Positions 27,462 through 33,073 of a stretch of 64,000 bases of DNA are shown piece by piece (position 1 is the first letter of the stretch; each line of letters starts with the position of its first letter). The stretch is taken from the NCBI GenBank assembly GCA_040218145.1, contig JAVJQK010000065.1:62001-126000 (forward strand). The letters are read 5' to 3'. The notes below the pieces were generated by a model. It was not told the DNA's origin and searched no databases. It worked only from the letters and a program-made list of their open reading frames with translations. The stretch comes from Sandaracinaceae bacterium. GTDB taxonomy: Bacteria; Myxococcota_A; Polyangia; Polyangiales; Sandaracinaceae. Made by a program: the position numbers and the translations under genes.

Positions 27462-30281
27462 ATGGCGGAGGCGAACGATCCGAAGCCACGCCGCTGGCTC
27501 CCCAGCGCCTCGCACGTCTTCGTGGCGCTCTTCGCCGCGCTCGTCGTTCACGCGCTCGCGGCCACGTACGTGTTCACCTCCCTCTGGGACTTCCGGGTCT
27601 TCCAGACCGCCTGGTACGACCACGCGTGGCAGCTCGAGCTGGGCTGGCGCGCGCACCTCGGTCAGTGGAGCGGGCGCGACTTCCACTACCCGCGAGGACC
27701 GCTCTGGCAGCTCGTCGCCTACCTCTCCTGGCGCCCGTGGCGAGGAAGCGACGCGACGGCGGCGGACGCGCTAGGTGGGATCGTCGGCGCCTTTCGATTG
27801 CTCGCGCTCGCGACGGTCGCCTGGATGGCGTGGGCCCGCGTGCGGCAGGCGGCGCTGCGACCGGTCATCCTGCTCATCCTCGCGAGCCTCTCGTTCGGCG
27901 CCGGCGTCCCGACGTTTCGCGCCCTGCTCTCGCTCGTGATCGTGCTGGTGCTCCTGCCTCCGCGCGACGACGCGTCGAGGCGCTTCCCGATCCCTCGCTG
28001 GCGCAACGCCGTGCTGGCGGCGGGCCTGACGACGCTCGCGCTGCTCTCGAGCTTCGATCGTTTCGGAGTCGCGATGCTCTCGGTCGCGGCGGTGTTCGGG
28101 ATCGAGCTCGCCGTCACCCGGCGCGAGGGGGCGTCGATGCGCGCCCCTGCGCTGCGGCTCGCGCACTTCATCGCCGCGCTCGCGGCCGCGCTGCTGCTCG
28201 TCGCGGCCGTCGGGTGGATGCTCGGGGCCGACCCGCTGGCGTACGTCGCGGAGCAGCGCGCGCTCGCGGCGGGCTACGCGAGCGGCATGCGCACGCCCTG
28301 GCACGTCGGGGTCCCACCGGTGAACGTCGCGGGCCTCTTCGCCGCCGGCGTCGCCCTCGTCGCCGCGGCCTGGTGGCGGCGGGCTCCCGGCCACGTCCTC
28401 GGCTGGCTCGCAGGCGCGCTGCCGCCCGCGCTCTTCGGGCTCGTCACGTCGGACCAGGGCCACATCTACATGGCGCTGCTCCCGTTCTTGTGCGTGCTGG
28501 TGCTGGCGGCGGCGGAGCGGGGTGTGGATGGCTGGTCGCGGTTCGGCGCCGGGCTGCTCGCCGCGATCACGATCCTGGGCTGGTTCGGCACGTATCCCGC
28601 CAGCGTCTCGATCGATCCGCGCGTGTTCCGAGATGCCATCGCCGTGGCCCGGGGAGAGAAGCGACCGGATCGGGGGTTCGTCTCGGAGCACGCCCGCGCG
28701 GTCACCTGGGCGCGCGAGCGGGTGGCCGAGGAGAACCCGCGCTGCGTCGCGTTCTGGCCGAGCCTCACCGTGGCGCACGCGATGGCGCGGGTGCCGGGAC
28801 CGACGATGCTCGCGCTTCGGTGGAACGACACGCAGCAGCGCGCGCTCTCACGCGCCATCGCCGAGCACGACTGCCCACTTTACTTGCATGACATACTCAG
28901 CTTCGACGACATCGGCGGATCGTGGTTCCTCGGCCCCGACTTCCTCACGATAGTCGAGCGCTACCGGTTCGAAGAGCGCGTCGGCGTCGGACTGGCGGCC
29001 ATGCGGCGGCGCGACGAGCCGATCGAGATCGACGCGGTGCCGCTCCCGACCCCGCGACGCGCGGCCGAGCTCGCGTTGCCCGGCGAGCTCGTCGTCCCGC
29101 TCGGGCGCACGGTCGAAGGGACCAGCGTCGTACGGCTCGACTACACCCTCGAGCTCGACGGGCTGCGGGCGCAGCTCGGCGGGCTCCCGTGGGCGGAGTG
29201 GCGCTTCGAGCGCGAAGGGGCCCCTGTGGGCGACTGGCAGACGCTGCACCACCTCCGCGCGGGCGAGGGAACGGTCTACCTCTCTCCGGACCCGGAGGCC
29301 GTCGAGTGGTCCTGGATCGCCGAGGCACCCCTCGTTCGCCGCGTCCGGGCGGACGCGCTCCGCATCCGCTTCGAGCGACGCGGCGTCTTCACGCCGGACG
29401 CGCTGACGTTCGTCGTGCGAGCGATGACCGAGCACCCCTCGCCGGCGCCGGGCCCCGAGCCCGCGGTCTCCTGCCGTGCAGAGATCGACCTGCTCGAGCA
29501 GCTCCGCGCCGGGCAGGCGTTCACGCGCATGGTGTCGCCGCGTCCCGCGCTCGTGCACTTCCACCTGGATCCCAACGTCTATCCTTTCCCCGACGCGGAG
29601 ATCTTCTTTCGCGCGCGGCCGTGCGCGGACGCCTGCCTGCACATGCGAGCCGGCGTCGTCTCCGACGTCGGCGACGGTGTGGACCTCGAGCTCCACGTGC
29701 TGTGGCGTGAGGAGCGACTGCGCGTGCTCTCCCACCGCGTCTCGCCGGGGACCGAGATCCCGTTCGAGATCCCGCTGGATCGCTGGACCGGCCGGTCGAT
29801 CCTGCTGCGGCTCGGCACCCGAAACGGTCGCAACGTCGATGGCGATCACGCGGTGATCGTGGAGCCCCGGATCGGGCCCTGTAGCGCGCGACGCTGGGTG
29901 GCCGAGGCGGTCGAGTCCGGGGACGCGCGGGTCGCGCGCGGGACGACCCAGGTGCGCGGCCGGGACGTGTACCTGGGCGCCAGCGGAGCGGAGCTGCGCT
30001 ACCCCCTGCACGTGCTCGATCACACCTGCTTCGGCGTCGGCTACGCGTCCGAGGGAGTTCCGTTCAGGGCGCGGGTGCGCGTCGGCCTCATGGTAGATGG
30101 GCTCGAGCACGTCCTCTTCGAGCGCGACCGAGAGCTGAGTCAGACCCCGGTGGGCGAGAGTCACTCGCTCGGCGAGTACGCGGGCCGCGACGCGGAGCTC
30201 GTCGTGGCGACCGAGCCGCTCGAGGGCGACGGCGAGCCTTCCCGCTGGACGGGCCCGCACGTCTACGAGTGCGCGCCATGA
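27462..30281 (+). CDS. Large membrane protein with soluble C-terminal repeats, unknown
   Basis: 939 aa. About eight to ten hydrophobic segments fill residues 1-390, with HYPRGPLWQLVAYL after the first ones, a layout like membrane glycosyltransferases of the GT39/GT83 class, but without a confident catalytic Asp pattern. The remaining 540 or so residues are beta-rich and soluble. Near the C-terminus there are two copies of a module ending in the pattern WTGR-x-IL-x-LRLG ... VEPRIGPCS and YAGRDAELV ... WTGPHVYEC. The stop overlaps the next ATG (ATGA). That neighbour is a diverged paralogue. I infer a pair of enzymes or carriers acting on a flipped glycan; no function is known to me. Confidence 0.7.
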   Translation: MAEANDPKPRRWLPSASHVFVALFAALVVHALAATYVFTSLWDFRVFQTAWYDHAWQLELGWRAHLGQWSGRDFHYPRGPLWQLVAYLSWRPWRGSDATAADALGGIVGAFRLLALATVAWMAWARVRQAALRPVILLILASLSFGAGVPTFRALLSLVIVLVLLPPRDDASRRFPIPRWRNAVLAAGLTTLALLSSFDRFGVAMLSVAAVFGIELAVTRREGASMRAPALRLAHFIAALAAALLLVAAVGWMLGADPLAYVAEQRALAAGYASGMRTPWHVGVPPVNVAGLFAAGVALVAAAWWRRAPGHVLGWLAGALPPALFGLVTSDQGHIYMALLPFLCVLVLAAAERGVDGWSRFGAGLLAAITILGWFGTYPASVSIDPRVFRDAIAVARGEKRPDRGFVSEHARAVTWARERVAEENPRCVAFWPSLTVAHAMARVPGPTMLALRWNDTQQRALSRAIAEHDCPLYLHDILSFDDIGGSWFLGPDFLTIVERYRFEERVGVGLAAMRRRDEPIEIDAVPLPTPRRAAELALPGELVVPLGRTVEGTSVVRLDYTLELDGLRAQLGGLPWAEWRFEREGAPVGDWQTLHHLRAGEGTVYLSPDPEAVEWSWIAEAPLVRRVRADALRIRFERRGVFTPDALTFVVRAMTEHPSPAPGPEPAVSCRAEIDLLEQLRAGQAFTRMVSPRPALVHFHLDPNVYPFPDAEIFFRARPCADACLHMRAGVVSDVGDGVDLELHVLWREERLRVLSHRVSPGTEIPFEIPLDRWTGRSILLRLGTRNGRNVDGDHAVIVEPRIGPCSARRWVAEAVESGDARVARGTTQVRGRDVYLGASGAELRYPLHVLDHTCFGVGYASEGVPFRARVRVGLMVDGLEHVLFERDRELSQTPVGESHSLGEYAGRDAELVVATEPLEGDGEPSRWTGPHVYECAP

Positions 30282-33073
30282 AGCGAAAGCTCACCGTCAT
30301 CGGGCTCTTCGCAGGGACGCTCATCGTGGCCGCGATCAGCCGCGCCGCCGTGACCGACTTCGCGAGCCTCGACGGCGCCGCGGCCGAGGGCGTGGACATC
30401 GCCACCGCGTGGCGCCTCGGGTTCGGGGAAGTGGCGGGCGTGAGCTTCGTGAGTCCGCGAGGCCCCCTCTGGCAACTCCTGGCGTGGGTCGGGGCGCTGG
30501 GCGCAACCGATGACCCCGCGCGCTTCGTGGGAGCACGATGCGCGATCCTCTCGCTCGCGAGCCTCGCCGTCGCGTCCTGGTCTGGCTGGCGCGCAGGCGC
30601 AGACGATCGCGGGAGCCTGTTCGCGCTCGTCGGGCTCGGCTGGCTGGCCCTGCAGCACCCGGAAGAGACGTTGCCGAGCATGCTCGCGCTCGCCGCGATC
30701 CTCGGGGCGCTGCGACCGCCGGAGGGAGACGCGGCCGAGGAGGCCTCCGCGGGAGCGCTCGCGGGGCTGCTGGCCGGGTTGGGCGCCTGGATCGATCCCG
30801 GGATCACCTTCGGGCTCGGCGCGAGCCTCACCGTCGCGCTCGGGCTGACGGAGCGCGGCGGTCGTGCGCGCGGCGCCGTGGCGCTGGCGACGTACGCACT
30901 CTTCGCGCTCGCCCTCGGCGCCGTCGTGGGCTTCGCGCCGCTGCGCGTCGACTGGGCCGCGGACGGGGACGGTCGCCCGGCCGCGCTCCCCCTCGCCGTC
31001 GTGTCGGGCCTCCTGGCCGCCGGTCTCCACCGGGCCGATCGCGTGGCCGCGGGATGGATCTTCGCCGCGCTGCCGCTGACCATCCTCGGCGCCGCGCGCG
31101 GTGACACGCCCGCCGCCTACGTCGGATCGTTGCCGGTCACGGGGGCGCTCCTGCTTGCCGGCGTCCGGCTCTGGCCACGCTCGGTGCTGGCGGGCTCGCT
31201 CGCGACGCTGCTGTTCCTGGTGGTCACCGTCGGCTGGGTCGGTCACGTCGGGATGAGCTCCGCGCCGGAGATCCACGCGGTCACGCAAGCCGCCACCCTC
31301 TTGGAAGCGCCTGGCGAGACTCCCGCCCGCGGTGACCTCCCCCGCGTAGCGCGACGTATCTCGCGTCTCTCGGGCTGCGTCGTGCTCCCGCGCCGCCTGG
31401 CGGCGGCGGCGCTGGTCACCGAGCGCCCCGGCCCGTGGTGGCCGAGCGACCGCGGCAGCGGCGCGCGCCTCGCCGAGGAGATTCGCCGCGCGCGGTGCCC
31501 CTGGGCCGTCGTCACGGGGCCCCTCCCGGGCCCCCGGACCGAGGGAGCGGACGAGGTCTTCGACCGAGCCGACCTCGCGCTGGCGGAGCGCTACGCCGTG
31601 CACGAGCGGCTGGGGCCGGCGACCCATCTCCTCTCGCTGGCGAGCGCCACGGTCCCCGCGAGCCGGTCTCCCCTGCCCCTGCGCACCGACGGTGCTCTAG
31701 CCCCGAATCAAGCGCTTCGCGCTTGCTCCGGGTCTAGCAATTCTAGTCAGGGGCTTTTCGCAAAAGCCCCTCGCTGCGGCGGCAAAGCCGCCTTCGCTTC
31801 ACCCGAAAACGACGCGCCTGCGGCGCTTCTAGCCCCAAATACAGGCGCACCGTGGAACGAGGCGCTGGATTTGGGTCTAGCAGTCCGGCCGACTCGCTTC
31901 GAGCTCGACCGGAGCGTCCCCCTCGATCGCGTGCTCTCGATCGAGCTCGAAGACCTCGTAGGCGAGCCGACGGCGCTGATCGTGACGGTGAGAGACGACG
32001 GCCGCGACGTCGGCGTCGCGCGACGCTTCCCGCTCGACCATGGCCAGGCGCTCGTGACGCCAGAGCCGAGGCTCGCGTGGTGGCGATGGCTGACCGGGTG
32101 GAGCTCGGCCGAGCCCCGCACGTGGGACAGCGTGGACCTCTCGCTGGATCGAGGCACCGCCACCGTGGCGCGTGTCACCGTGCTCGAGCCCACCGACGCG
32201 ACGCGAGGTGACGCCCCGACCCGGTGCACGACGGACCGCGCGCTGCAGGCGCCCCCCTTCGCGCGGAACGCCGCCGCGCGACGAGAGGGAGATCTGATCG
32301 CGCTCGATCCATCACCGCCCGGAGCCGTCGCGGAGCTCGGCTACCTGGCGATCCCCTGCGATGACACCTGCCTCGTCGGCGAGGTGGGGCTGCTCGACGG
32401 CGCGGGGCCCTCTCACACCCTCCAGTTCGAGGCCAGCGTGTTCGACGGAGGCGAGGAGCTTCACTCGGTGCGCTACGAGATCGGCCGCGGGTGGCGCAAG
32501 CCGTTCGAGCTGCCCCTGCATCCCTGGTCGGGGCGCGAGCTGCTCCTGCGTTTCACCGCGCGCGCGCCGGGCGCCGACCTCCGCGGGCTCGCGCGACTCT
32601 TCTCTCCGCGCCTCGCGCGGTGCTCCGGACACCCCAGCCTCGTGACCCGGTTGCACGACGAGGCGCGGCACGAGGTGGAGCACGGAGCCCCTCGCATGAT
32701 CGGCGACACGCTGGAGCTCCCGGTGCGTGAGCGGGGCGCGCCGCCGACGGAGGTCCGCGTTCCTCTGCAGCTCGAGCGGCCGTCATGTCTCGCGGTCGAG
32801 GTCGCGGCGGCGCAGCACGACAGCTGGGTGACCGTGCTGGTCGGCGTCGTCGAAGGCGGTCGACTGCGGCGACTCGTCCGCGAGACGTTCGGTCCGGGAG
32901 ACGTCGAGGTCCGACCGCTCACCGATCGCGACCTCCGCGGTTGGACGGGCCGGAAGATCGAGCTGTACCTGGCCGCTTGGTCCACCACTCCCCACGAGGC
33001 CAGCGGAGTCGCGCGCCTGATCCGGCCTCAGCTTCACACCTGCGGTGAAGAGCCGCGGTGGCTCTTCCACTGA
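30278..33073 (+). CDS. Large membrane protein, paralogue of the preceding gene
   Basis: 931 aa from the ATG in the ATGA overlap with its paralogue. The N-terminal region carries several hydrophobic helices and the shared SPRGPLWQLLAWV motif. The C-terminal part repeats the same module pattern twice: HPWSGRELLLRF ... FSPRLARCS and RGWTGRKIELYL ... IRPQLHTC. Between the membrane part and these modules, about residues 474-535 are encoded by a CTAG-bounded palindromic element and have no counterpart in the paralogue; the flanks (PLPLRTDG and RSVPLDRVL) read smoothly. The insert keeps the frame open although it contains five TAG triplets out of frame. Function unknown. Confidence 0.7.
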   Translation: MKRKLTVIGLFAGTLIVAAISRAAVTDFASLDGAAAEGVDIATAWRLGFGEVAGVSFVSPRGPLWQLLAWVGALGATDDPARFVGARCAILSLASLAVASWSGWRAGADDRGSLFALVGLGWLALQHPEETLPSMLALAAILGALRPPEGDAAEEASAGALAGLLAGLGAWIDPGITFGLGASLTVALGLTERGGRARGAVALATYALFALALGAVVGFAPLRVDWAADGDGRPAALPLAVVSGLLAAGLHRADRVAAGWIFAALPLTILGAARGDTPAAYVGSLPVTGALLLAGVRLWPRSVLAGSLATLLFLVVTVGWVGHVGMSSAPEIHAVTQAATLLEAPGETPARGDLPRVARRISRLSGCVVLPRRLAAAALVTERPGPWWPSDRGSGARLAEEIRRARCPWAVVTGPLPGPRTEGADEVFDRADLALAERYAVHERLGPATHLLSLASATVPASRSPLPLRTDGALAPNQALRACSGSSNSSQGLFAKAPRCGGKAAFASPENDAPAALLAPNTGAPWNEALDLGLAVRPTRFELDRSVPLDRVLSIELEDLVGEPTALIVTVRDDGRDVGVARRFPLDHGQALVTPEPRLAWWRWLTGWSSAEPRTWDSVDLSLDRGTATVARVTVLEPTDATRGDAPTRCTTDRALQAPPFARNAAARREGDLIALDPSPPGAVAELGYLAIPCDDTCLVGEVGLLDGAGPSHTLQFEASVFDGGEELHSVRYEIGRGWRKPFELPLHPWSGRELLLRFTARAPGADLRGLARLFSPRLARCSGHPSLVTRLHDEARHEVEHGAPRMIGDTLELPVRERGAPPTEVRVPLQLERPSCLAVEVAAAQHDSWVTVLVGVVEGGRLRRLVRETFGPGDVEVRPLTDRDLRGWTGRKIELYLAAWSTTPHEASGVARLIRPQLHTCGEEPRWLFH
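31697..31880. repeat. CTAG-bounded palindromic element inserted in frame
   Basis: Five CTAG tetramers (31697, 31734, 31743, 31829, 31877) mark three units. Unit A (31697-31737, 41 nt) has 19-nt arms matching at 16 positions around a TTC loop; its core CAAGCGC-TTC-GCGCTTG is perfect. Unit C (31829-31880) has the same ends, CTAGCCCC...GGGTCTAG, but different inner arms that still pair (CCCAAAT with ATTTGGG). The middle (31743-31832) has three perfect hairpins: GGGGCTTTT/AAAAGCCCC (31750-31770), GGCGGC/GCCGCC (31778-31792) and GCGCC/GGCGC (31814-31826). CTAG is scarce elsewhere in the window. No transposase or second copy was seen. Confidence 0.85.

Follow-up and report, generated by a model that had tools for sequence, protein, structure and literature searches.

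Bacterial MITEs are short and multi-copy, have TIRs, duplicate their target and lack a transposase gene, a related autonomous IS being found in the same genome; occasionally they form in-frame fusions (PMC10969869). Rickettsia palindromic elements, 100-200 bp long, are read in frame inside unrelated proteins, and nearly half of their copies lie inside genes (PMC10969869). In Coxiella, QMITE1 and QMITE2 have about 50 copies, which often lie shortly downstream of a gene's 3′-end, with some insertions in frame (PMC5896051). Among autonomous elements, the IS1380 insertion sequences encode a transposase of the NF033539/PF13701 type, have ends starting with CC and are about 1.7-1.9 kb long. The family is usually listed with a target duplication of 4-5 bp. 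One of its members, IS1247, is listed at 5 bp (PMC3281130). The eukaryotic piggyBac elements, in a study of which IS1380 was taken as the outgroup (PMC10813416), have a palindromic 4-base target core and ends that often begin with CCC.

Here we describe an interrupted gene of a Sandaracinaceae bacterium, found in a window of 64,000 nucleotides (the whole stretch of DNA that was analyzed; all positions below refer to it). The palindromic stretch within this gene is a MITE copy, a member of a MITE family new to science. It is, with high probability, a non-autonomous MITE of an IS1380-family insertion sequence, targeted to CTAG and probably moved by a transposase of that family whose gene lies elsewhere in the genome. 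The features of the locus are as follows:

30269-33073, + strand: host gene, interrupted in frame; orthologue in a same-species genome (G001, contig C683) without the insert; no Pfam match
31696-31701, + strand: left target-site duplication TCTAGC, from flank comparison
31702-31875, + strand: MITE proper, 174 bp, ends CCCGAATC...GATTTGGG, from comparison of copies and target-site duplications and from empty sites of other copies
31876-31881, + strand: right target-site duplication TCTAGC, from flank comparison
31702-31732, + strand: unit A, an inverted pair of IS-like terminal repeats, from end alignment and a near-solo copy (L040/L235)
31743-31832, + strand: unit B, the middle module between CTAG sites, from its hairpins and its relatives in another family
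31834-31875, + strand: unit C, a second inverted pair of IS-like ends, from end alignment and a solo copy (L236)
31829-31832, + strand: internal CTAG, whose equivalent in other copies (L035, L036, L061, L038, L039) is joined or nested with MITE family D
31697-31879, + strand: translated insert frame LAPNQALRACSGSSNSSQGLFAKAPRCGGKAAFASPENDAPAALLAPNTGAPWNEALDLGL, the sole stop-free frame of the element's six

A sequence scan placed CTAG at 31697, 31734, 31743, 31829 and 31877, precisely where the initial annotation had seen five sites framing palindromic units, and the arms of A, the middle hairpins and C were likewise found as it described them. The whole window has 10 CTAG, against 59 in shuffles, and half of them fall within one 184-bp stretch; five in so short a distance are thus far beyond chance. 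The stretch also folds much more strongly than its shuffles (z -5.5 as RNA, -4.6 as DNA). The boundaries of the element lie one base inside each outer CTAG. Unit A has 14-nt arms (31702-31715 and 31719-31732) around a 3-nt loop, and unit B has three hairpins (31749-31771, 31778-31792 and 31814-31826) and a linker, TTCACCCGAAAACG, at 31798-31811.

With the palindromic stretch as query, the bacterium's own genome (G000; 11.06 Mb in 148 contigs) gave about 40 matches at 90-100% identity. The initial annotation had proposed such a search, and many copies indeed lie outside the window gene. Since many contigs stop within a copy, so that apparent partial copies are mostly contig ends and not real truncations, the halves must be paired for counting. 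By our own count after such pairing, there are at least ~26 distinct insertions; 14 of them have both flanks, and about 12 others are represented by a left or a right half. Fifteen full copies have a mean identity of 95.5% and a lowest of 91.8% (the insertions are 92-99% alike). The same-species genome G001 has ~20-27 matches (about 20 insertions), partly at shared sites; eight other genomes of the family Sandaracinaceae had no copies, and a plasmid collection searched with the element gave no match.

When the flanks are aligned, the layout of a copy is x CTAG y, element, x′ CTAG y′. Of 16 copies, 15 have an undamaged CTAG core on each side and 10 have all six bases identical; the outer bases match in 27 of 32 comparisons (P 3e-12 against 1/4). 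From this agreement the element is 174 bp long with a 6-bp duplication, NCTAGN, making a net addition of 180 bp. Mismatches occur in 6 of 16 MITE copies, among them L004, L011, L013 and L016, and in 9 of 19 of the IS relatives considered below, mostly at the outer bases; the exact cut is therefore uncertain, and the duplication may instead be 4 bp plus variable bases. In G001, the sites of two other insertions proved to be empty, with a single GCTAGA or CCTAGA. The family thus has the marks of a MITE: dispersed, near-identical copies of <400 bp, TIRs in common with an autonomous IS, target duplication and empty sites. An IS630/Tc1 MITE at CTAG, duplicating TA only, was also considered; it was discarded since bases beyond TA and beyond CTAG are duplicated far above chance and the partner transposase belongs to IS1380.

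The partner was found by a pattern search of G000 for the end CTAGNCCCNAAT, which beyond the MITE copies occurs as a pair 1.85 kb apart on contig C119 and as single ends on C9 and C122. The C119 element (~1.85 kb; ends CTAGGCCCCAATCAAGCGCC...GCCGCTTGATTGGGGGCTAG) has between its ends a single ORF of 537 aa, an IS1380-family transposase (NF033539, E 1.7e-82, 277 bits against a cut-off of 180; PF13701, E 2e-27). Its end, CCCCAATCAAGCGC, agrees with the outer MITE ends at 13 of 14 positions (left arm, unit A) and 12 of 14 (right end, unit C). That no transposase is seen, as initially remarked, is correct for the window but not for the genome, which has this one on C119, with matching ends and a CTAG target. 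Judged from these sequence matches, the C119 IS would mobilize the MITE in trans.

Relatives of the transposase, 64 in number, are spread over many phyla among GTDB genomes, the nearest (80% identical) being in Myxococcales bacterium UBA1660 (L113). In most of those with locatable ends, similar inverted repeats containing CAAGCG adjoin CTAG, and the preference for CTAG is hence a property of this IS1380 lineage. In the 19 relatives scored by hand, 26 of 38 outer bases match (P 2e-8) and the mismatches are concentrated there. For the relatives as for the MITE, the best fit is a 6-bp duplication with a CTAG core and non-uniform outer bases, which fits 4 bp plus variable bases too; membership of the partner in IS1380 rests on the transposase. 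In the library of papers searched, no relevant work was found on a CTAG target of IS1380 elements or on MITEs of myxobacteria.

Knowledge of the IS end also clarifies the anatomy of the MITE. Unit A is made of two IS-like ends back to back, and unit C of two such ends with a short spacer; the inner ends match the IS end less well (11/14 and 8/14). As the units also occur singly (A followed by CAATTCTAG in L040/L235, C alone in L236), the 174-bp element is best seen as a composite, two minimal end-pairs around module B. The outer units have common ends and different inner arms that still pair, which the initial annotation had attributed to selection on the hairpin. The pattern is real, but hairpin selection is not needed, because A as well as C is built from two IS terminal repeats in inverted orientation. 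Within the family, a covariation test of the hairpins found no base pair changed on both sides.

In the five loci where family D is joined to the element, it sits at the CTAG between B and C, which indicates that the internal CTAG sites are themselves used. One further locus, L037 (G000:C77:27669-27926), is an A-B-C-B tandem and suggests recombination or insertion at internal CTAG sites. Family D itself is about 164 bp long (L012, G000:C134:14109-14272), has ends GCAGNGTCCGGCRAAGATG, also lies at CTAG and gives 28 end-pattern matches in G000. It is nested in or adjoins several copies of the 174-bp element, and is possibly IS630-like with a TA duplication. A short palindrome, AAATGCTGAAGCATTT, is present in the left flank of L004, and a similar form is found inside D (L003, L012).

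The host gene, starting with GTG at 30269 or ATG at 30278 and ending at 33073, reads on through the element without a stop, all five TAG triplets being out of the coding frame, as had been claimed. About 61 added residues had also been claimed, by comparison with a paralogue at 27462. The in-frame addition is real, but its net size is 60 residues (180 bp), and the paralogue (29% identity, in the C-terminal part only) is too distant to prove it. The proof comes from an insert-free orthologue, a comparison that had been recommended: on contig C683 of G001 the gene is 97-99% identical at the protein level, with a gap of exactly 180 bp, or 60 in-frame codons. At the junction, the G001 allele GCTCTACGTGTCC and the joined G000 flanks GCTCTAGCAGTCC have three adjacent differences. 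The region 27462-33073 encodes two large membrane proteins in tandem (939 and 934 aa), the paralogue and the host protein, with distant paralogues on G000 contigs C11 and C115; a Pfam search of both gave no match.

Only one of the six frames of the element is open, and both coding insertions read that frame. In the window gene the insert peptide LAPNQALRACSGSSNSSQGLFAKAPRCGGKAAFASPENDAPAALLAPNTGAPWNEALDLGL is presumably translated as part of the host protein. The second insertion lengthens a gene of 309 aa, which we take to encode an N-formylglutamate amidohydrolase-like protein, to 369 aa in G000, exactly +60 and in the same element frame. This case was assembled from the contig ends C111 (L024) and C8 (L017), which have a 141-bp identical overlap (other left halves differ by 2-3) and whose flanks are adjacent in G001. 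At both coding sites the G001 allele has no CTAG (TCTACG in the window gene, CCTCGA in the second case), yet the two intergenic empty sites in that genome do. Since G001 and G007 both have CTCGAC at the second coding site, CTAG there is derived in G000. Either CTAG arose at the coding sites by mutation before insertion, or insertion converted the site.

Nearly all insertion sites are intergenic, frequently close to where a gene ends, or coincide with a TAG stop codon; the window gene and the 309-aa gene are the only intragenic cases among at least 26. In 864 kb of G000, with genes called by our own codon-usage gene caller, the background of CTAG (n = 82) was 44 intergenic, 24 in CDS, 13 within a TAG stop codon and one at an edge. 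CTAG occurs 3 times per 100 kb of CDS and 61 times per 100 kb elsewhere, making it ~20-fold rarer in coding DNA. Against this background, insertions are depleted from CDS at only modest significance (Fisher P 0.03). The proportion at stop codons does not clearly exceed the background, so that target availability suffices to explain it. In L011 and L111, one CTAG serves as the stop of two convergent genes, and both genes keep their stop because the duplication regenerates CTAG. Locus L105 was dropped as a coding insertion; it lies directly before the likely GTG start of a lipoprotein gene.

These features can be put together in a simple scheme. The IS1380 transposase would recognize, at either end of the element, the terminal repeat CCC(G/A/C)AATCAAGCGC, cut NCTAGN with a 6-bp stagger and paste in the 174 bp, thereby duplicating NCTAGN. 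Most insertions would be harmless, CTAG being rare in coding DNA, sometimes overlapping a TAG stop and regenerated on both sides. If CTAG lay inside a gene so that its CTA was read as a Leu codon, and if the element entered forward, the net 180 bp and the open frame would yield a 60-residue insertion. In other phases or in the reverse orientation the gene would be truncated and the insertion lost. Insertions in other phases have probably been purged in this way, and the in-frame cases are best understood as those that passed selection on the host gene.

The likeness to the in-frame elements of Rickettsia, drawn in the initial annotation, holds to the extent that the same working is seen at two loci. 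A selfish palindrome, selected in length and reading frame for life inside proteins, could explain the net 180 bp, the one open frame and the same peptide in two unrelated proteins. The element is nevertheless probably not a Rickettsia palindromic element, all but two insertions being intergenic or at stop codons, and both coding cases fit selection after insertion. Moreover, 50 distinct family variants in the open frame comprise 11 synonymous and 39 non-synonymous changes, where 26% synonymous are expected; the peptide is thus without sign of protein-level constraint, and the conservation of the residues as a domain with synonymous substitution, which the initial annotation had named as a result that would speak against its reading, is not found in the 60 codons. 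We consider such a palindrome quite improbable. That the residues are a genuine domain or linker of the membrane protein, as a frame open and continuous with the gene might suggest, is refuted by the nearly identical insert-free orthologue and by the presence of the same DNA outside genes dozens of times; it has next to no chance of being right. Short palindromes, paired units and a tetranucleotide flank would also be expected of a REP/BIME family mobilized by a RAYT (Y1) transposase. However, RAYT/IS200 elements are not known to make a target duplication, and the two-ended inverted repeats, the duplication, the precise empty sites and the matching IS1380 DDE transposase make this explanation very remote.

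Unit B deserves separate thought. Within the order, a different family has diverged homologues of A+B or B (G043, with three copies, L244, L247 and L252; G058, L245; G086, L246), at 72-76% identity and with the linker TTCACCC invariant. In these relatives hairpin 1 has two-sided changes at three pairs, with a covariation score above all shuffles and slid controls (six sequences); the MAFFT alignment does not keep hairpins 2 and 3 in register, and only hairpin 1 is counted meaningfully. Compensatory change in hairpin 1 across families is suggestive only. Unit B might then be a functional structured regulatory RNA or terminator, retained across the order, to which the transposon ends are secondary. 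But the distant copies number only five, pairing in the hairpins of mobile elements can persist for reasons of DNA, and an Rfam search gave only a sub-threshold match to tfoR (14.8 bits vs. 70); we think a role of this kind unlikely. A wider view is that a prokaryotic lineage related to piggyBac and specific for CTAG exploits the overlap with TAG stops and the depletion of coding CTAG to spare host genes, its MITE carrying an old hairpin module that has its own function and has persisted in more than one family of the order. This view we hold to be speculative and rather doubtful.

On the preferred reading, that of an IS1380-type MITE, the palindromic insert is accounted for by a mobile element whose likely source has been identified. 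The work also documents an IS1380 lineage preferring CTAG across many phyla, illustrates how two convergent genes can survive an insertion intact when the palindromic target contains a stop, and provides two cases, each within the species, in which a MITE has lengthened a protein by 60 residues. The noteworthy parts are the IS1380-type CTAG specificity and the stop-codon-sparing target; otherwise this is an ordinary mode of mobile DNA.

In sum, the element shares with bacterial MITEs the properties listed at the outset, but it is composite, with two inverted-end pairs around a hairpin module, and its parent is an IS1380 element with a CTAG target. The partner agrees with the IS1380 family in transposase, ends and length, except that its lineage appears to duplicate NCTAGN where IS1247 is listed at 5 bp. 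Rickettsia palindromic elements, compared here by description, resemble it in size, in palindromic form and in being read in frame inside unrelated proteins; in our case only two insertions are intragenic and an IS parent is identified. The Coxiella QMITEs are similar in placement and in their occasional in-frame insertions, but by description have variable duplications of 2-11 nt and, in QMITE2, a GTAG REP. With piggyBac it has in common a palindromic 4-base core and ends of the CCC type, although the core is TTAA there and CTAG in this prokaryotic lineage.
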